From positions 124,001 to 188,000 of the forward strand of contig NZ_JGZI01000007.1 of the NCBI RefSeq assembly GCF_000741705.1: a DNA stretch of 64,000 nt. Direction: 5' to 3'. Source of the stretch: Bifidobacterium psychraerophilum. Lineage in GTDB: Bacteria; Actinomycetota; Actinomycetes; Actinomycetales; Bifidobacteriaceae. The notes below the pieces were generated by a model. It saw nothing but the letters and a program-made list of their open reading frames with translations, searched no databases and was not told the origin of the DNA. The translations under genes and the position numbers were made by a program. Positions 55,990-64,000 of the stretch are shown piece by piece. The first letter of the stretch is position 1. Each line of letters begins with the position of its first letter.

Positions 55990-58900
55990 CTACAGGCGTC
56001 GCTTCAGGAAACGGCTGATGGTCACCTTGGCACCGCCAAGCGCCAGCAGCATGACCAGCAGCGACAGAGCGGCGACCCCTGCCGTCATCCGGTGAGATTC
56101 GACCGCTCCACCCGTGCCCACACTCGCCCCTGCGGCTGAAGCTCCCTGATCGCCGCCGGTGGCCGAGGCTGCACCATGAGTGCTGCCCGCATTGTTTCCC
56201 GTCGCCGCAGGTGGCTTCGGCAGGTCAACGGTCCCCGATGCCGAGCCATCGCTTTTCGAAACCAGCACGCTTGTTGCTGCGGACGCCTTGGAATCACCGA
56301 TCTGATTGCTGGCAATGACGGCAACCGTGTGCTTTCCGGCACCCGTCGCGCCCAGATCGATGGTGGCGGAGGTATCCGTGAAGACGCCTCTCGCCTTGCC
56401 ATCGACGAGCACCTGGTAGGAGATGATCGGGCTTCCCCCGTTATCAGGCGCATCCCAACTGATGTGAAGCACCGTCTTATCGACGCTCACCTTAGGCATG
56501 CCCGGAGTCTCGGGCACCACTGCGCCAACCGTAACGCTGTTCACGCTCTTCGCGGCTTCTGAATTCCCCACACCGTTGCTTGCCGCAACGGTCGCCGAAT
56601 AGCTGGTGCCGCGCTGCTTCGCTGTGAAGGTGTAGCTCAGCTTGTCGCTTTGCGCGGTGCTGCCATCCGAAAGCACCACGGTGTAGGCGGTGATGGATGA
56701 TCCACCGTCACTCTCCGGAGCCGACCAGGAAACCGTCACATCCTGGCCTTCGGCACTCATCGTCACATTGGCGGGCGAGGAAGGAGCCGTTGCCTTCGGG
56801 GTGGTGACAAGCGCTTCAATCGCCGTATTGAGCGCTTTCGCGGCCGAATTCATCTGCTCGTCCGTCGATGATGCGTCCTCATCCACCTGCTTTCCGGCGC
56901 TGATCGCATCCCGTACCGCCGACCAGCTCTCGACGGTATATGCGCTCTCATCCAATGCCGCGGCATTCGCAAGTTGGTATTCCAATTGGAGCCGGGCATC
57001 AGAGACAAGCTGGTCCGCAGCCAATGCCAAGGATCTGGTCTGCTCGTCCACATCCGACTGGCTGTCCGGCTGCGATTCGAGCATGGCGTATGAGGATTGC
57101 ATCTGAGCCGCAAAGGTGGAGTAATAGATGCTGTTGTATTGCCGGGCATCATTATTGATATCCGCATACTTCTTGTACGCGGCCGCCAGTTCGGTGGTAT
57201 CGACACCTGACAGGAACGTCAGGGAATCAATGTTCGAGACGTAGGGATGCCCGTCATAGGCCTCGGTCAGCAGTTGCAGATACACCGTGTGCTTCCCGGT
57301 GATCGCCGTCGGCAGATGTACGGTGGTGTTTCCCGCCGAACTCCAATTGCTGCCCGTGAACGGCAAGGCGATCGTCGTGTATGGCGTTCCAAGATCCGAG
57401 GAGGAAGACGGATCGAGGTAGACGGCGATTCGTGAATTCAAACCGTCGCGGCTGCTGTTATTGACGTAATGCACGCTGATGTCGGTTCTGGCCACATCGG
57501 AGAAATCGATATCGTCGTAGCGAAGCCAATCGCCGTTCGAAGTCCCCTTGAGGTTACGAACACCCGTCCCATCGTTCCAGCTTGACTGCTCGTCCCCCAG
57601 GGAACCGCCGCTATCCGCATTCCGTGATGCCGCTTTGACGACCAGTGACGATGCGGTGGCGCTGAAGGAGATCGTCTTCACATTCGCCACATATGGCAGA
57701 CTGCTGGTCTCGGTGGTGGATACGAAGCTCGCGAAAACGGTCTGGACGCCCTTGAACACCGTAGGATCCACACTCGCGGTCGCGGTCGCATAGCTTCCCC
57801 ACGAGCTACCGGTATAGGCGAGTGGGATGCTGGCCACAACAGGACCGTCCTTCGAAGCAAGATGCAGTTCGATATGGGAATCCGAAGCAGCTCTGGAGGT
57901 CGGCTTGTCATACAGCACGCTGACCTTGTCCACGCCGCTGCCGAAATCCTGCGAGTCCCATTCGACCCATGCCCCCGTGGTGAGATTCTCGAACATGCCG
58001 TTGGAGGTATTGATCGCTTTGGCGCCATCCCCTTTCGCGCTCAGATTGCTTGCCTGAAGGGTTGGATAGCTCAGCTCGTCCGAACCGAATCTGAACCAGT
58101 CGAAGTTGCCGACCCACTGCCTTGACGAAGGCTTGTGGAACACGAAGGTAACTCCTGATGCGGCTTTCAGGGCCTTGACGGCGCTGGCGTCCAAGGAGAC
58201 GGTCGACGTGGTGTAATTGCCGAAACCGCTGGTCCCGGAAAGATCCACCGTTGCGATAACGGTGCCGCTCGCATCACCGGCATGCACCTCGACGGTACTG
58301 GCCTCATCCGAAGCTCCGTAACTCGTGGCGTACCGTATGGTCAGGTTCTGCGGATCCGACGACGAGGAGAAGTCCATATCCTGATAGCTGACCCATGAGC
58401 CCTCCGATACGCCTCCCAGATCACCGGCGGACTGGTAGCTTTCGTTCTTCAGATCACCACCGGACCATGAGTCGCTCTGCTCCGCCTGAAGAGTCCGGTA
58501 TGGGCCGGCGACGATGGCGAGGGCCGCAGTCGCCGCGGAGAGATCATCCTGCGCCGCCGAAATATCGTCGTCGTTCAATGTGCTTGCGGACAGCGCCTGC
58601 TTGGCCGAGGCCAGAGCCGTGCTCAGTCGCTGATACGATGCCGATGAGTAATGCTTCTGTTGCAGGATTTGAACCCCATCGACCAGCGAGCTCAACTTCG
58701 CCGCTTTGAGTTTCGTCACACTCACGGTAAGAGGCAATTGCTCGGACAACCCCTTTCCGCTTACCTTGGATGCGTCGACCGATACGCCATCCACCTTCTC
58801 GAAGAGAGCGTCACCCAGGCTGAGATATGGATGCGCGCTTTGCGTCGCGGTGCCCTCAATACTCACTTCGAGGGTGGACGCCCCGGTGACCCTCGCCGTG

Positions 58901-61581
58901 GCGGTGAGCGTGGATGGCAGATCGTTCATTCTGATCGCGCCCTCGGCAATCGGATCGCTGCCTGCGGCACCCTGTTTCAGGGTCGCCCCTTTGAAGGTGA
59001 AGGTGTAGGTGCCCCTGACCTTGCCCTCGCCATCGGCATCCACGCTGGCCCTGTCCAGTATGGCGGACCACTGGCTTTCCGTGGTGCCGCCGTGGCTGGC
59101 GGCGTTGCTCATGGAATAGGCCGCCGCCGAATGTTCACCCCAATCGGAGGCGGTGGACTGCATACCGAAGTCGAGTGTGCCTCCACTGGTCATATCCGAA
59201 TAATCCACCCAGGTGTTCGCATAGCTCTTCCCGTTCAGAGAAGCCGAAGCTATGTAGTAATTCGTGGATGACGCACCGGAGGCGTTCACCGTGAAGTTGC
59301 GCCCACTGGGATAGCTGACGCTGACGGAGTCGAAGAAGGGCGAACCGACCTGGTACTGGCTGGATCCCATGGTCACCGGGAACAGCCCGACCGCTGCGGC
59401 AACATACATCGAGGACATCGTGCCCGCATCGTTATCCATGGTGGGCAGGAAACCCTTCGGATCCAGCTTGTACACCTTCGTCTTGATCGGAGGGGTGAAT
59501 TCACCGTTCGAACTTGAGTACTCATCGGTGCTGCCGGTCGCGATGTAACGGTTCCAGGACTCCCCGGCGTATATCTGACGGACCCACTTCTGTGTTTGGC
59601 TCGGCATCCCCACATAATTGAAGAGATAAGGGGTTTGGAGCTCCACTTCGTTGGCGTTGGAGTGCAGCATACCGGTGCCGTCGTCGGCACCGTCCTCACC
59701 GAACATGTGCTGCAGCGCCAGCCTGGTGGCCGTTGTGCCTCCCATGGCCTTGATCATGGCTTCCATATCGTAGGTGTCGTACCAGTTGTACTGCCATAAT
59801 GTGCCCTGGTACAGATTGGCAGCCTGGAATGATTCAAGGCTGTCATTGCCCCAATTCCCACTGCTGTCCCTGGAGGAGAGCACGCTGACCGCGGTGCCGT
59901 CCTTGGCCGTCCAAGCGGAGGGTTTGTATTGCGTGGCGAATGGGTATGCGGCCTGCTTCTCATAGGTGGCCGCATCCGTGCTGTTGCCGATTGATGTGGC
60001 GATTATGGACAGCGCCCAGTCGTCATAACCAAGCTGCACGCTGCTTCCCGGATTGTCCGGGATGTATCCCCTGGCATCATTTTCGCTCGAATACGAACCC
60101 ACCAGCCGTTGCAGAGCCGGGTACGCCTTGCTCACGCGCTTGAGCGAGAATCCTTTGTTCAATGCATCCGCGATGATCTCCGCCGAACGCTCCCAACGAA
60201 CATTCGGCACCGACTGCATCAGTGAGGACATACTGGCCGTCGTGCTGGCCGCCTGACTGTCGGCGAAGGTATCGACCAATGATTGCGCCATATCCTTGTA
60301 CATATCGGGATAGAGCATCGCGATCACACCGAATTTATGCCAATCATCCCAGGTCGCCCAACCGTCATAATGGACGGCCCCATCCGTGCTGTGGACCACA
60401 CCGTCGACTCCCCGGTAGGTGCCGGAAGTGCTCGTGGCATTGGTCGGAAGGGCCATCAGACGATACAGATGCGTGTAGAAGAGCTTCTTCATCGAACCGT
60501 CCGGATCGTTCTCGGCGGATGCCGTGACCTGCACTCGCCCGAGCACGTCGTTCCAGCTGTCATACGCCTGCTGCTGGATGTCGGCGAAACTCTTCGAGGC
60601 GATTTCGGCGCTCTGATCGATTTTCGCCTGCTCGGCGCTGATAGGGGAAACCGTTACGTCCAGTCCTATGGTCTGCCCCGCACTCGGATCGAATGTCAGC
60701 ACGGCACCGGTATCGGTACCTGACTGGTTGAGCGCGGAGGACAATGTGCCCGCATCGCCCCACGTGCTGAGGGTCTTTACCGCACTGCTGGTTGTCGCGT
60801 AGTAGTACATCGTGTATTTGGCACCGTTGAACTGTCCCGCGAAACTCCCTGAGATCGCCTTACGCCCGTCTGAGAGATCGCTGACGCTCAGGCTCGAGGA
60901 GATGCGTTCGGTGAAGTTGTTCTTCATGTCGAACACCAGCGATTGCGCTTGGCCGCTGGGGAAGGTGAAACGATCCAAACCCGTTCGGACCGATGCCGTC
61001 ATTTTCGCTTCGATACTGCCGGTACCTGTGCTGATCGATGAATCCTGACCTGTCGTTTGGCTCAGACCGACCTGATAGTAGCCCGGCTTGGCGCTTTCAT
61101 CACTGTGCGAGAAGGTGTGCGCATATGAGGAGGTGTCCGGACGCTTCGAATAGTTGACGGAGGTGGGAACCACAAGGATGTCGCCGCCACCGCCCGAACC
61201 GCCGACACCATCAAGATTCGTATGCGTGAAACCGGAAATCTTCGTATCCGAATAGTTGTACCCGCTATGCGTGCGATTCTGACTGGTCATCGGATTGACT
61301 TTGACGATGCCATGCGGGGACTGCGCGCCCGGCAGATCCTGTCCATCGTCATCCGCCGTGGAAACGAAGGGATTGACGTATTGGGACACGTCGGTGTCGC
61401 TTTGCGTCGCGGCCTGAGCGGTGCCTGCCGCAGCGATGCCTATGCCAGACACCAAGACGACACTCGCCATGAAGGCGGCCGTCCGGACGAACATGCGACG
61501 TGCCGATCTGCCCGCGCGTGCGCCCTTTCCTGTGTTCGGAACCATGAACATGAACCTTCCTGCTGATTGTGCTTTCCTCAT
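55990..61581 (-). CDS. Multidomain surface alpha-mannosidase, family GH92
   Basis: 1863 residues from the ATG at 61581 (GAGGAA, about 6-7 nt). A long signal peptide ends near AQA (residue 57). The GH92 part, about residues 68-800, shows QYVNPFVSTADDDGQDLPGA, GFTHTNLDGVGGSGGGGD, DGWATWDDWH and MDNDAGTMSSMY, where the acidic residues include the calcium ligands and base of this calcium-dependent family. After it come a FIVAR-like helix bundle (about 963-1025), three CBM6-like domains (about 1028-1440), more FIVAR-like helices and two Fn3 domains. The C-terminus has GASVGTGGAV (1818-1827), a hydrophobic helix and a basic tail. It would trim alpha-1,2-mannose from N-glycans or yeast mannan outside the cell. 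There is no LPXTG. Confidence 0.92.
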   Translation of the reverse strand: MRKAQSAGRFMFMVPNTGKGARAGRSARRMFVRTAAFMASVVLVSGIGIAAAGTAQAATQSDTDVSQYVNPFVSTADDDGQDLPGAQSPHGIVKVNPMTSQNRTHSGYNYSDTKISGFTHTNLDGVGGSGGGGDILVVPTSVNYSKRPDTSSYAHTFSHSDESAKPGYYQVGLSQTTGQDSSISTGTGSIEAKMTASVRTGLDRFTFPSGQAQSLVFDMKNNFTERISSSLSVSDLSDGRKAISGSFAGQFNGAKYTMYYYATTSSAVKTLSTWGDAGTLSSALNQSGTDTGAVLTFDPSAGQTIGLDVTVSPISAEQAKIDQSAEIASKSFADIQQQAYDSWNDVLGRVQVTASAENDPDGSMKKLFYTHLYRLMALPTNATSTSGTYRGVDGVVHSTDGAVHYDGWATWDDWHKFGVIAMLYPDMYKDMAQSLVDTFADSQAASTTASMSSLMQSVPNVRWERSAEIIADALNKGFSLKRVSKAYPALQRLVGSYSSENDARGYIPDNPGSSVQLGYDDWALSIIATSIGNSTDAATYEKQAAYPFATQYKPSAWTAKDGTAVSVLSSRDSSGNWGNDSLESFQAANLYQGTLWQYNWYDTYDMEAMIKAMGGTTATRLALQHMFGEDGADDGTGMLHSNANEVELQTPYLFNYVGMPSQTQKWVRQIYAGESWNRYIATGSTDEYSSSNGEFTPPIKTKVYKLDPKGFLPTMDNDAGTMSSMYVAAAVGLFPVTMGSSQYQVGSPFFDSVSVSYPSGRNFTVNASGASSTNYYIASASLNGKSYANTWVDYSDMTSGGTLDFGMQSTASDWGEHSAAAYSMSNAASHGGTTESQWSAILDRASVDADGEGKVRGTYTFTFKGATLKQGAAGSDPIAEGAIRMNDLPSTLTATARVTGASTLEVSIEGTATQSAHPYLSLGDALFEKVDGVSVDASKVSGKGLSEQLPLTVSVTKLKAAKLSSLVDGVQILQQKHYSSASYQRLSTALASAKQALSASTLNDDDISAAQDDLSAATAALAIVAGPYRTLQAEQSDSWSGGDLKNESYQSAGDLGGVSEGSWVSYQDMDFSSSSDPQNLTIRYATSYGASDEASTVEVHAGDASGTVIATVDLSGTSGFGNYTTSTVSLDASAVKALKAASGVTFVFHKPSSRQWVGNFDWFRFGSDELSYPTLQASNLSAKGDGAKAINTSNGMFENLTTGAWVEWDSQDFGSGVDKVSVLYDKPTSRAASDSHIELHLASKDGPVVASIPLAYTGSSWGSYATATASVDPTVFKGVQTVFASFVSTTETSSLPYVANVKTISFSATASSLVVKAASRNADSGGSLGDEQSSWNDGTGVRNLKGTSNGDWLRYDDIDFSDVARTDISVHYVNNSSRDGLNSRIAVYLDPSSSSDLGTPYTTIALPFTGSNWSSAGNTTVHLPTAITGKHTVYLQLLTEAYDGHPYVSNIDSLTFLSGVDTTELAAAYKKYADINNDARQYNSIYYSTFAAQMQSSYAMLESQPDSQSDVDEQTRSLALAADQLVSDARLQLEYQLANAAALDESAYTVESWSAVRDAISAGKQVDEDASSTDEQMNSAAKALNTAIEALVTTPKATAPSSPANVTMSAEGQDVTVSWSAPESDGGSSITAYTVVLSDGSTAQSDKLSYTFTAKQRGTSYSATVAASNGVGNSEAAKSVNSVTVGAVVPETPGMPKVSVDKTVLHISWDAPDNGGSPIISYQVLVDGKARGVFTDTSATIDLGATGAGKHTVAVIASNQIGDSKASAATSVLVSKSDGSASGTVDLPKPPAATGNNAGSTHGAASATGGDQGASAAGASVGTGGAVESHRMTAGVAALSLLVMLLALGGAKVTISRFLKRRL
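56101..56124 (-). other. Sorting-signal motif SVGTGGAV in the GH92 protein
   Basis: Codons for SVGTGGAV precede a hydrophobic helix and a basic end (RFLKRRL), the three-part layout of a sortase substrate. The identical pattern, SVKTGGAV, is found at 62526-62549 in the phosphatase, with the sortase gene between the two. Confidence 0.6.
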
Positions 61582-61696
61582 ACTGATTTCCTCTGTACGG
61601 CACTCGCCCGTGCCGAATGCCCTCATGTGAAGCGCGATGGCCGTATAGGGCCGACTCTTCATCCCGTTGCCGCCATCCGTGACGGCCACATCGCAT

Positions 61697-62401
61697 TCAT
61701 GACTGCAATGTGGCGTATATGACGGCATTCTGCAGGGATCTGCCACTTACGCGCTCAAGGCAGGTGATGACCACCAGCCTGCCCGGAGTGTTCTGCCATA
61801 CCCGGCTTTCATCCTGCAATGAACTCTTGGGAAGCAACTCGCCACCTGTTACCTGATAGCTGCGTTCACCCACCTGTATGCGTGCACCCTTGGCGAGCTT
61901 GATGCTCCCCTGCTCCACATTCGTCAGATAGTTACCTGGGGCCAGACCCCCCTGAACCGAATGCATAACCACAAACACCGTTCCGTCCTTGGCCTGGTCA
62001 AGACCCACCCCGAGGTTGCGGACCAGATAGGCATCCCGGAATCCGGGAGGCACGATGACCCCGTCGACAACGCTTAACGACTGCATGCCGACATCCAAAC
62101 CCACGCTGGGAACCGTGAATCGCATCCCCGATTCCTGTTGGGGCTTCATGGCGGCGACCTGCTGTTTGGTGGGCTGCTGACCGTCGTCGAGGACGACGGT
62201 GTTGCCCGCAAGATCCTTGGCGCCACCGGCTGCCGACGACATCGACCCTTGTTGCAGCAGCGCCATCAGTAGGGAAGCCACCGCAAGCGCAGCCATGAGG
62301 ACGAACACCACGGCCAGAACGATCAGCCCCAGTGGACGTTTGGTGTCTGCCCCGACACGAGGCCGTTGGCTGTGGGATGCCCGCCGTCGCATACCTCGCA
62401 T
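61697..62401 (-). CDS. Sortase (cysteine transpeptidase)
   Basis: 234 residues from the ATG at 62401, ten bases after the phosphatase stop, with AAGGGTGAGGAG upstream. A basic leader and one membrane helix (residues about 24-48) are followed by the sortase barrel. The active-site residues are His147 in VVMHSVQGG, Cys214 in LVVITCLER and probably Arg221. It would anchor surface proteins to the cell wall. Its neighbours on both sides end with the same TGGAV-type signal, so they are its likely substrates. The class (E or F style) cannot be settled by eye. Confidence 0.9.
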   Translation of the reverse strand: MRGMRRRASHSQRPRVGADTKRPLGLIVLAVVFVLMAALAVASLLMALLQQGSMSSAAGGAKDLAGNTVVLDDGQQPTKQQVAAMKPQQESGMRFTVPSVGLDVGMQSLSVVDGVIVPPGFRDAYLVRNLGVGLDQAKDGTVFVVMHSVQGGLAPGNYLTNVEQGSIKLAKGARIQVGERSYQVTGGELLPKSSLQDESRVWQNTPGRLVVITCLERVSGRSLQNAVIYATLQS

Positions 62402-62411
62402 CTCCTCACCC

Positions 62412-64000
62412 TTACTGTCGTCTGCGCCTGACCACAATGACACCCGCCACCGCCAGTGCGATCAGTGCCAGAACGCTCAACGCACAGAGAGCCCAGACCC
62501 ATCGTGATCCCTGATTGGCCGTGACCACCGCACCGCCCGTTTTCACGCTGGCCCCGGAGCCCTTCGTGTCCGCGTCAGCGGCGGTGCCCTTTGTCGGAGA
62601 CTTCGACGCATCGCTTGAGTTGCCGCCCGTGGAAGGCTTTGTGGCCTGCGAACCACTGCCCGGTGTCGAAGCGTTCGAGCCCGGGGTGCTGCCGTTGCCG
62701 GATCCGGAGCCCCCATCATTCCCGGAACCGTTGTCGTTTCCGGAACCGTTGTCGCCGCCGGCATCGGAGCCCGACCCGACGTGCAGGTCACCGTTGTTGT
62801 CGATGGTGTAGCTTGCGGTCAACGCGGCGCTCAGATTCACACGCTGCCAGTTGCTGGATTCCACATCCGCGTTATCAAGCGGATACCCGGCTGCCAGCGC
62901 CGTCTGCTCGATGAGTTGTTTGCGCTGATTATCGCTCAGATTCGGATACTTGGTCAGCAACAGGTCTTCCGCACCCGTCGGAACCGTGAATCCCTCGCTC
63001 GCAGTGGCTGCCTTGCTCTCGGTAAGTTGGGGCAAACCGTAGGTGAGCCTCTCGGTGTATGTGGAGACCGCCTCACTCGTGCTTGAAGCGCCCGAGGAGC
63101 ATGCCTCCAGAGTGCTGCCCGCCCCGGATGAGATGCACTGTCCGAGGAGCACGGTTTCCAGCTCCTGATGGGCCTCGATCAACAGGCTCCTGAACTGTGC
63201 GTCACTCCATCGGTATCCGACCATCGACTGCCCGCCCATGCGTCCGCCGATCACATCAATCGGGTAATGGAATCCAAGCACGATCCTGTTGTTCCCATAC
63301 TCCGAAGCACGTTCGAGAATCTGCGGTGCCAGTTGCGGGAGCAAGGTGGCCAGAGTGGTTCCGACCTCATATCCCGCGGTCGTGTGTCCGCTGGGGAAGG
63401 AGTCGTTATGAAAGCCGTAACCGATGTTTGCGGCCTTGATGTAACCGCCGCTGGTGGTGAATCCGAGCCTGTCATAAGGTCTGGTTTCGGTGTACACGCC
63501 TTTGGCCGCATCATGCCCATCGATGCCGTTGGTGATCATCGTGTTGACCAGGGCCGAGGTCTTCGGGAGCTTGCCCGCGTTGTAGGCGTTGATGTACAGC
63601 TCACCGAGTGTGGAACCGAGACTGTCGTACATCGTGACCGCAGGCGAATTGTTCGCATCGGTGATGGCTTTGCTGATCTGCGCGTCGCTCGCCGTATTGT
63701 TGATCTCGACGAGCTTCTTGTCATTCGCCGCCGTCAATGCGCTTCCTGAGGCAAGGGTTGAATTCCCTCCCCAGATCTCCGAGTGATCGCCGAGCGCGGT
63801 GTACCCGCTGAGCATATCCACGAAGTAGTTGTTGCCATCTGAGGTGGCGGGCCATGCGTTCGAAGCATAGGTGGCGGACTGCTGGCTGTCGGTGTAGGGC
63901 AGGGACAGGTATTCGGAGGTGTAATACAGCGCAGGCATATCGAAGTAGGCATCGGAACTGCTCGAGTTGCATTGGTGGACCTCGACGGCTATCACGTTCT
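62412..64000 (-). CDS. Secreted PAP2-family phosphatase with sorting signal (start outside the window)
   Basis: 529 codons are visible and the frame is open to the right edge. The segment next to the edge, VIAVEVHQCNSSSSDAYFD, resembles the end of a jelly-roll domain found before phosphoesterase or cell-wall domains. The PAP2 domain then shows SFPSGHTTAGYEV and NRIVLGFHYPIDVIGG, the C2 and C3 acid-phosphatase motifs; the first motif is unclear. A Gly/Asn/Ser/Asp/Thr-rich linker with a tandem repeat leads to GASVKTGGAV, a membrane helix and RRRRQ. It would be a wall-anchored phosphatase, first visible gene of the operon with the sortase and GH92. Confidence 0.85.
   Translation of the reverse strand, partial: NVIAVEVHQCNSSSSDAYFDMPALYYTSEYLSLPYTDSQQSATYASNAWPATSDGNNYFVDMLSGYTALGDHSEIWGGNSTLASGSALTAANDKKLVEINNTASDAQISKAITDANNSPAVTMYDSLGSTLGELYINAYNAGKLPKTSALVNTMITNGIDGHDAAKGVYTETRPYDRLGFTTSGGYIKAANIGYGFHNDSFPSGHTTAGYEVGTTLATLLPQLAPQILERASEYGNNRIVLGFHYPIDVIGGRMGGQSMVGYRWSDAQFRSLLIEAHQELETVLLGQCISSGAGSTLEACSSGASSTSEAVSTYTERLTYGLPQLTESKAATASEGFTVPTGAEDLLLTKYPNLSDNQRKQLIEQTALAAGYPLDNADVESSNWQRVNLSAALTASYTIDNNGDLHVGSGSDAGGDNGSGNDNGSGNDGGSGSGNGSTPGSNASTPGSGSQATKPSTGGNSSDASKSPTKGTAADADTKGSGASVKTGGAVVTANQGSRWVWALCALSVLALIALAVAGVIVVRRRRQ
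62526..62549 (-). other. Sorting-signal motif SVKTGGAV in the phosphatase
   Basis: Codons for SVKTGGAV stand before a 25-residue hydrophobic helix and four arginines. The preceding residues GA are also shared with the GH92 protein, giving the common string GASVxTGGAV. The TG pair matches the cleavage position of LPXTG, with SV in place of LP. Confidence 0.6.
62722..62754. repeat. Two tandem 18-bp units in the phosphatase linker
   Basis: CCGGAACCGTTGTCG occurs at 62722-62736 and again at 62740-62754, an 18-bp period encoding repeated Gly-Asn-Asp/Gly-Ser residues. It lies in the flexible linker before the sorting signal and could vary in copy number. Confidence 0.6.

Follow-up and report, generated by a model that had tools for sequence, protein, structure and literature searches.

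A divergent class F-type sortase encoded between two probable substrates with a shared valine-containing sorting signal in Bifidobacterium psychraerophilum

Sortases consist of an N-terminal membrane helix followed by a catalytic domain. A 64,000-nucleotide stretch of the Bifidobacterium psychraerophilum genome (assembly GCF_000741705.1, contig NZ_JGZI01000007.1, positions 124,001 to 188,000 of the forward strand; hereinafter, the window) encodes a divergent protein of this kind between the genes for a PAP2-domain protein and a GH92 protein (hereinafter, cargos) that end with nearly the same ten-residue pattern, GASVKTGGAV and GASVGTGGAV, respectively. In the described sortase reaction, the catalytic cysteine attacks the threonine carbonyl of the signal, which severs the T-G bond, and the polypeptide is transferred to lipid II (PMC5148588; here and below, papers are cited by their PubMed Central identifiers). 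The class E enzymes that read LAXTG (PMC5148588) resemble the window system in that they are actinobacterial and their signal has a non-proline residue in the second position, but this signal begins with leucine, the enzymes have the catalytic arginine, and the window genome encodes a class E enzyme of its own. The signals QVPTG, EVPTG and VVPTG of group A streptococcal pili (PMC7900414) share with the window signals the second-position valine, the lack of an initial leucine and a linked dedicated sortase; they differ in having proline in the third position, in being served by pilus-building sortases and in coming from another phylum. The C. difficile sequence NVQTG likewise has a second-position valine and neither leucine nor proline in the first two positions, but SrtB left the NVQTG peptide uncleaved in the experiments reported in PMC4371152; the same letters are also found beside two actinobacterial class F-like sortases, L088 and L157 (loci are denoted by L and a number, and genomes by G and a number, G000 being the window genome). 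Given the streptococcal precedents and the NCBIfam signal model GVDTG_CTERM, a second-position valine is not without precedent.

The class F sortases of Actinobacteria have been reported to carry asparagine in place of the catalytic arginine (PMC6998099); PMC13257024, by contrast, presents the His-Cys-Arg triad as present in all sortases. The role of class F is called unknown or undesignated in PMC6998099 (2020) and PMC13251363 (2026). The latter paper reports that deletion of all four class F genes of an Actinoplanes gave no phenotype, and its patterns for finding sortase substrates were only LPXTG, NPXTG, SPXTG, PPXTG, LPXTA and LAXTG.

Comparison of the window locus with these systems suggests that its sortase very probably reads the unusual tag shared by its two neighbors instead of the textbook one, and we consider it likely, with good confidence, that the locus is a self-contained module of three genes for surface display. 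The genes lie on the minus strand in the order PAP2 protein, sortase, GH92 protein. The stop codon of the PAP2 gene (62412-62414) and the sortase ATG (62401) are ten bases apart (GGGTGAGGAG), confirming the proposed placement of the sortase gene; the sortase TGA is at 61697-61699, the likely GH92 ATG (61581) lies 115 bases further, and the GH92 stop codon is at 55990-55992. The shared pattern, the hydrophobic stretch and the basic end of the two cargos were likewise found in the sequence as described, and both cargos start with export-type signal sequences that are directly visible. A promoter and terminator scan of the locus gave no scores above those of shuffled controls. The features are:

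61697..62401, minus strand: divergent class F-like sortase, 234 amino acids, with an N-terminal membrane helix (model residues 24-49), predicted with AlphaFold and Foldseek
61961..61963, minus strand: codon of His147, the catalytic histidine by family
61760..61762, minus strand: codon of Cys214 in ITCL, the catalytic cysteine by family
61727..61729, minus strand: codon of Asn225, at the place of the catalytic arginine (class F trait)
62412..64000, minus strand: PAP2-domain cargo (Pfam E-value 2.6e-11), extending past the window to a likely start at window-equivalent position 65153
62526..62555, minus strand: signal GASVKTGGAV of the PAP2 protein, followed by a hydrophobic helix and RRRRQ
55990..61581, minus strand: GH92 cargo (Pfam E-value 1.5e-82), 1863 amino acids from the likely ATG, with CBM6, CBM35 and fn3 domains and a signal peptide
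56101..56130, minus strand: signal GASVGTGGAV of the GH92 protein, followed by a hydrophobic helix and RFLKRRL

No Pfam or NCBIfam model matched the window sortase at E ≤ 1, and it is the predicted fold that shows the protein to be a sortase. The AlphaFold model (m99763698d5ff, the best of five, built from an input of eight sequences) has a mean predicted local distance difference test score (pLDDT) of 78, compared to 63-64 for the remaining four models; from residue 91 on, the values per ten-residue block are mostly 81-96, with one block at 73. In a Foldseek search of the PDB, the best 50 of the 100 matches with E ≤ 0.001 were all sortases, named as types A and C (best E-value 1.7e-07). A sequence search of solved structures with the window sortase alone yielded no match, and the same search with a profile yielded a single weak one (E-value 0.22), to an entry named Listeria sortase A by Foldseek. 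The window protein is thus predicted to adopt the sortase beta-barrel fold, and the helix at model residues 24-49 fits the general sortase build.

His147 and Cys214 of the TC motif are invariant in all ten aligned rows and in all 53 rows of a larger set that had been limited to rows with a readable TC motif. The place of the strand-8 catalytic arginine, located by sequence register and the predicted strand 224-232, is occupied by Asn225. Asparagine is found at this place in all 52 class F-like rows and in 26 of the 27 readable rows (30 fetched) collected with the class F model; the remaining row has arginine, which supports the register. The asparagine is a class F trait already in print (PMC6998099) and no novelty of the window gene. 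Two candidates for a relocated catalytic arginine were rejected. R128 occurs in 20 of 25 window-branch rows (it is absent from L138 and L053-L056) and in one of the 27 others, and is thus a branch marker rather than a general feature; R208 is arginine in 45 of the 52 class F-like rows, with K in L147 and L152 and Q or E in L157 and L053-L056. No universal arginine was found among these 52 rows. Arg128 belongs to a stretch, PPGFxxAYxVRN, that precedes His147 and is a candidate for reading the valine of the signal; class E enzymes read the second motif position via the loop after strand 3 (PMC5148588).

The window sortase matched neither the class F model NF033748 (curated cut-off 166 bits) nor the class E model NF033747 at E ≤ 1; its neighbors bear SVxTG. 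NF033748 was weakly matched by six of the ten rows of alignment A3, which comprises the window sortase and its relatives (best E-value 0.0025). Membership in class E or class C was rejected on the basis of the model searches, and a comparison of the A3 profile with the two enzymes of these classes in the same genome was uninformative. Given that the predicted fold, His147, Cys214 and Asn225 are shared with class F, the window sortase is of the class F kind, yet too distant from the model of this class for a match.

We then consider the signals and sortases of the entire genome, the comparison proposed with the original prediction. A degenerate DNA pattern for SVxTG[GA]xV had six matches in the 2.6-Mb genome and nine in the reversed control, so the raw count is uninformative. 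Three of the six matches, however, occur in long frames, 44-46 residues from the end, and are followed by a helix and a basic tail, namely those in the two window proteins and in a third protein adjoining a paralogue of the window sortase; the other three lack this combination of helix and basic tail, and the whole-genome pattern search gave no further C-terminal SVxTG[GA]xV signal. All three signals thus lie beside the window sortase or its paralogue. A pattern with Gly or Ala required before Ser gave eight matches against 13 in the control and included only the two window signals. The paralogue (G000:C9:428429-428980) is 48% identical to the window sortase over 183 residues, and its gene directly follows that of a cargo with PSVHTGGTV, a DUF6923/DUF11/SpaA-type surface protein with an isopeptide fimbrial domain match just under the cut-off. 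Upstream of this second pair is a frame that resembles an integrase by eye (L014:5149-6018), which, along with the patchy distribution described below, suggests that the module moves between genomes.

The Pfam sortase model detects only two other sortases in the genome, which score above the cut-offs of class E and class C, respectively. The class C gene follows genes for LPYTGG and LARTG proteins. A scan with the anchor model PF00746 (E ≤ 10) gave 21 places, namely the PAP2 tail (16.2 bits, below the 20-bit cut-off), 13 tails with L[PAS]xTG and seven without such a motif. The GH92 tail is absent from these matches, and having missed two of the three SVxTG tails, the scan may miss more. All 13 other anchored proteins have Leu first and Pro, Ala or Ser second in the motif. 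The presence of LPXTG or LAXTG on other surface proteins had been named as one half of a finding that would speak against an SVxTG-reading enzyme; such proteins do exist, along with the class C and class E sortases to serve them. Four frames of about 1000 amino acids (L024, L025, L026 and L030, on contigs C10 and C9) have LPYTGG ends that are nearly identical over the last 80 residues compared; they occupy dispersed sites, separate from the pilin-like frame next to the class C sortase, and perhaps represent a repeated surface protein family.

Among 189 genomes of the family, a two-row profile (E ≤ 1e-5) matched seven: the window genome, a same-genus species (G142), a truncated remnant in another same-genus species (G130), and four distant relatives in small genomes. 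In G142, the sortase gene is followed by that of a rhamnosidase-like cargo with GASVHTGGSAV. G130 retains only a sortase fragment (L057:9363-9863) with no cargo there, among neighbors similar by eye to those in G142 (L052:9466-13818); enzyme and substrate appear to have been lost together at this locus. In a search with a profile of the tails (E ≤ 0.001, at most 35 candidates scored per genome), strong matches (E ≤ 2.9e-11) came from two genomes only, with three in the window genome and one in G142, and these are also the two that have an intact close sortase; the remaining 26 matches (E ≥ 1.6e-6) lack xVxTG before the helix, and no strong match was found in the four genomes with a distant relative. 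The distant sortases (L053-L056 in G166-G169) are class F-like, and their genomes are incomplete, at 0.7-1.0 Mb; at three of these loci, the adjacent protein looks exported and has QTG or QTSG near its end with no clear helix and basic tail. Scans of genome contigs and viral contigs with the two-row profile and a plasmid search for sortase relatives produced no match.

The pairing recurs in other genera. Tails were collected with a scanner whose requirements are T[GA], a hydrophobic segment and a basic terminus; it leaves the first two motif positions free and also reports false or distant tails. Signal labels are the nearest tail, picked by eye. Seven loci emerged when named genomes were scanned with three rows. 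In Leifsonia (SVNTGG), two Curtobacterium (AVNTGG) and Arthrobacter (TVETGG), the signal is encoded immediately upstream of the sortase gene. The Pfam matches of the cargos in the named genera are beta helix (under cut-off), DUF6923/GEVED and DUF7507/DUF11/SdrD_B, and the Curtobacterium cargos had no Pfam domain match. The cargos are largely, not wholly, unrelated: the two from Curtobacterium are nearly alike in their tails, and DUF6923 or DUF11-type repeats are common to the second-locus, Microbacterium and Arthrobacter cargos. In an alignment of nine tails, the only invariant columns are G..V.TGG, and the sequences of helix and tail vary.

Across the order (396 genomes searched, 29 of them with E ≤ 1e-10), 31 matches came from genomes other than that of the window. 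The best 20 of the 31 were examined, and a same-strand neighboring signal was detected in 15: VVKTGA in seven genomes of one other genus, RSNTG in three, and LVATGG, SSATG, NGATGG, NIQTA and NVQTG in one each; L147 has VVKTA on the opposite strand. In a class-wide search (23 matches, 20 fetched), PTAVDAG-like tails were found at nine of the 20 loci, two of them LPTAVNAG, with leucine present. The others include NVQTG (L088), NAQTA (L082), RSNTG (L081, missed by the scanner and labelled from longest-frame gene calls, which are unreliable in high-GC loci) and an ambiguous label (L091); six of the 20 loci have no signal within 2.5 kb, and L084 has an LPDTGG frame on the other strand as well. The sortases L083, L084, L086, L087, L092, L095 and L096 form a class F-like branch encoded just downstream of cargos with (V/A/L)PTAV(D/N)AG-like signals, a helix and a basic tail; a signal of this type may be cut at T-A. 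At L098, two cargos (MSAQTGDN and MAAETGSN) flank a single class F-like sortase.

In a tree of 52 sortases, the window branch (25 rows) has a support of 100/100. The 39 rows with signal labels (one of which, L091, is the label 'none') require 18 changes on this tree, with 17 the least possible, compared to a mean of 29.0 when labels were shuffled; none of 200 shuffles was as low as observed. Before tree construction, L149 (no readable Cys motif), L094 (by hand) and the class C and class E enzymes of the window genome were removed; the bootstrap is not fully settled, and seven rows are near-copies. Valine occupies the second position in 17 of the 19 window-branch signals vs none of the 13 other anchored proteins of the genome; these counts come from hand-collected lists, from which VVKTA of L147 was left out and AVHTG of L105 was kept, both on the opposite strand. 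Thus, the neighboring signals follow the sortase tree, with exceptions. The original proposal that the sortase reads SVxTG, without leucine or proline in the first two positions, is supported insofar as the pairing is seen in the second locus, the same-genus species and four named genera, with S, A or T in the first position and largely unrelated cargos. This position is not fixed, though, and is S, A, T, V and once L in the branch, so the code is better written as xVxTG[GA], with two exceptions in the branch that lack the valine.

The class F enzymes proper (NF033748) provide the nearest comparison. In a survey of 20 loci over the NCBI cut-off (best per genome, 149 genomes searched), 11 have a same-strand upstream neighbor with an x-(V/I/M/A)-x-T-G signal, namely GVATG in four and GIATG, GIQTG, GVETG, GMQTG, GAETG, PIDTG and SVKTG; V or I is second in nine of the 11 and Leu is first in none. 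No such signal was detected at the other nine loci. Upstream of two of these sortases (L205 and L206) are ice-binding-like proteins (PF11999). The window system resembles class F in fold type, in His and Cys, in Asn for Arg, in that the gene is often directly downstream of that for the cargo and in that V or I is second in most signals, but the window branch has (S/A/T/V)VxTG(G/A) rather than GVxTGxGG. GVDTG_CTERM (NF058571, cut-off 29 bits), which describes a C-terminal signal with the same second valine, Thr-Gly, helix and basic end, was matched by all four class F-sortase neighbors tested, below the cut-off in every case, and its existence implies that a class-wide rule has been partly recognised by curators. 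It had no match at E ≤ 1 in the window cargos, the second-locus cargo or the cargos of L101, L103 and L052, and therefore does not cover the SVxTGG branch. In the openly licensed PubMed Central literature, we found no paper linking a sortase with SVXTG, SVKTG, SVTTG, SVQTG or SVETG and no sortase paper with PTAVDAG, VVKTG, AVNTG or NVQTGA; GGVATG, VATGAGG and VETGGGS occurred in none of the papers among the matches listed (GVDTG was not searched). These comparisons point to a divergent class F-type branch with what appears to be its own code, new with respect to known class F sorting.

Several observations weigh against this reading of the locus. The C. acnes enzyme, the only class F sortase with an assay in the papers considered, acts on LPQTGE peptides, by transpeptidation (PMC7451113), so the class F type is compatible with LPXTG. 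The tail profile itself included the four tails that scored best, so this test bears on absence elsewhere and is not independent evidence of presence. Scored simply as valine or not valine, the signal needs five changes on the tree (an unshuffled figure). The Microbacterium AVHTGG cargo (L105) is 3.6 kb away on the opposite strand, the Humibacillus signal VSDTGG (L107) and NGATGG of L152 lack the second-position valine, and the scanner found no signal at L102 (a Corynebacterium metagenome-assembled genome, cut by the contig end) or L053-L056. Four of the 20 order-wide loci (L146, L149, L151 and L155) have no same-strand or near opposite-strand signal; a GVETG-like tail lies 6.3 kb from L149 on the opposite strand, and LPFTGS was reported on the opposite strand of L138, each a false or distant tail.

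Alternatively, the sortase could be a sorting peptidase or pilin-type ligase: after cutting xVxTG, it would release the cargo by hydrolysis of the acyl-enzyme or link it to another protein instead of peptidoglycan. The asparagine in place of the catalytic arginine, and the SpaA domain and near-cut-off isopeptide fimbrial match of the second-locus cargo, would fit such an activity; nevertheless, we consider it unlikely, given that the asparagine is a class F trait (PMC6998099), that a class F enzyme performs transpeptidation (PMC7451113), and that the GH92 and PAP2 proteins are unlike pilins. We see quite a small chance that either the class E or the class C sortase of the genome recognises the SVxTG tails, the small sortase being redundant or having another substrate: both enzymes are present and score above their class cut-offs, and a class E enzyme cleaves LAETG and LPETG peptides alike (PMC5148588), but the other 13 anchored proteins all have Leu followed by P, A or S, strong SVxTG tail matches in the family are confined to those two genomes where a close relative of this sortase exists, and the co-variation on the tree concerns class F-like enzymes. 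It seems highly improbable that the common tail serves only as a membrane anchor, unread by any enzyme, and owes its spread to gene conversion or module shuffling. The window tails are indeed alike over ten residues and follow low-complexity linkers in both proteins, but only G, V, T, G and G are invariant in nine tails, with the helix and tail diverging, and the pairing with a sortase recurs in several genera.

Under the preferred reading, a surface-display module with a dedicated sortase, the signal peptides would export both cargos, and the C-terminal helix would keep them in the membrane. The membrane-bound sortase encoded between them would recognise xVxTG[GA], here GASVxTGG, and cut it between T and G (GASVxT|GG) with Cys214 and His147, and the Thr-acyl end would then be passed to a peptidoglycan precursor as the acceptor. 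The cell wall would thereby come to display a PAP2 phosphatase and a secreted GH92 enzyme of the alpha-mannosidase type, and the code would keep these cargos apart from the L[PAS]xTG proteins of the class E and class C sortases.

The co-variation of enzyme and signal across genera provides specific enzyme-peptide pairs for testing, as well as a broader pattern with which to look for surface proteins missed by present annotation, and an orthogonal sortase-peptide pair would serve protein labelling. We give even odds to a broader proposal on class F as a whole, in which the window sortase represents a divergent, hitherto unannotated branch: every enzyme of the class would be dedicated to the cargo encoded next to it and would recognise, instead of LPXTG, a signal that is particular to its lineage and has valine second, with xVxTG having drifted in some side branches to SxTG, PTAVDAG and NIQTA. 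If true, this class-wide rule would account for the lack of a known role for class F sortases after substrate searches that relied on LPXTG-type patterns.

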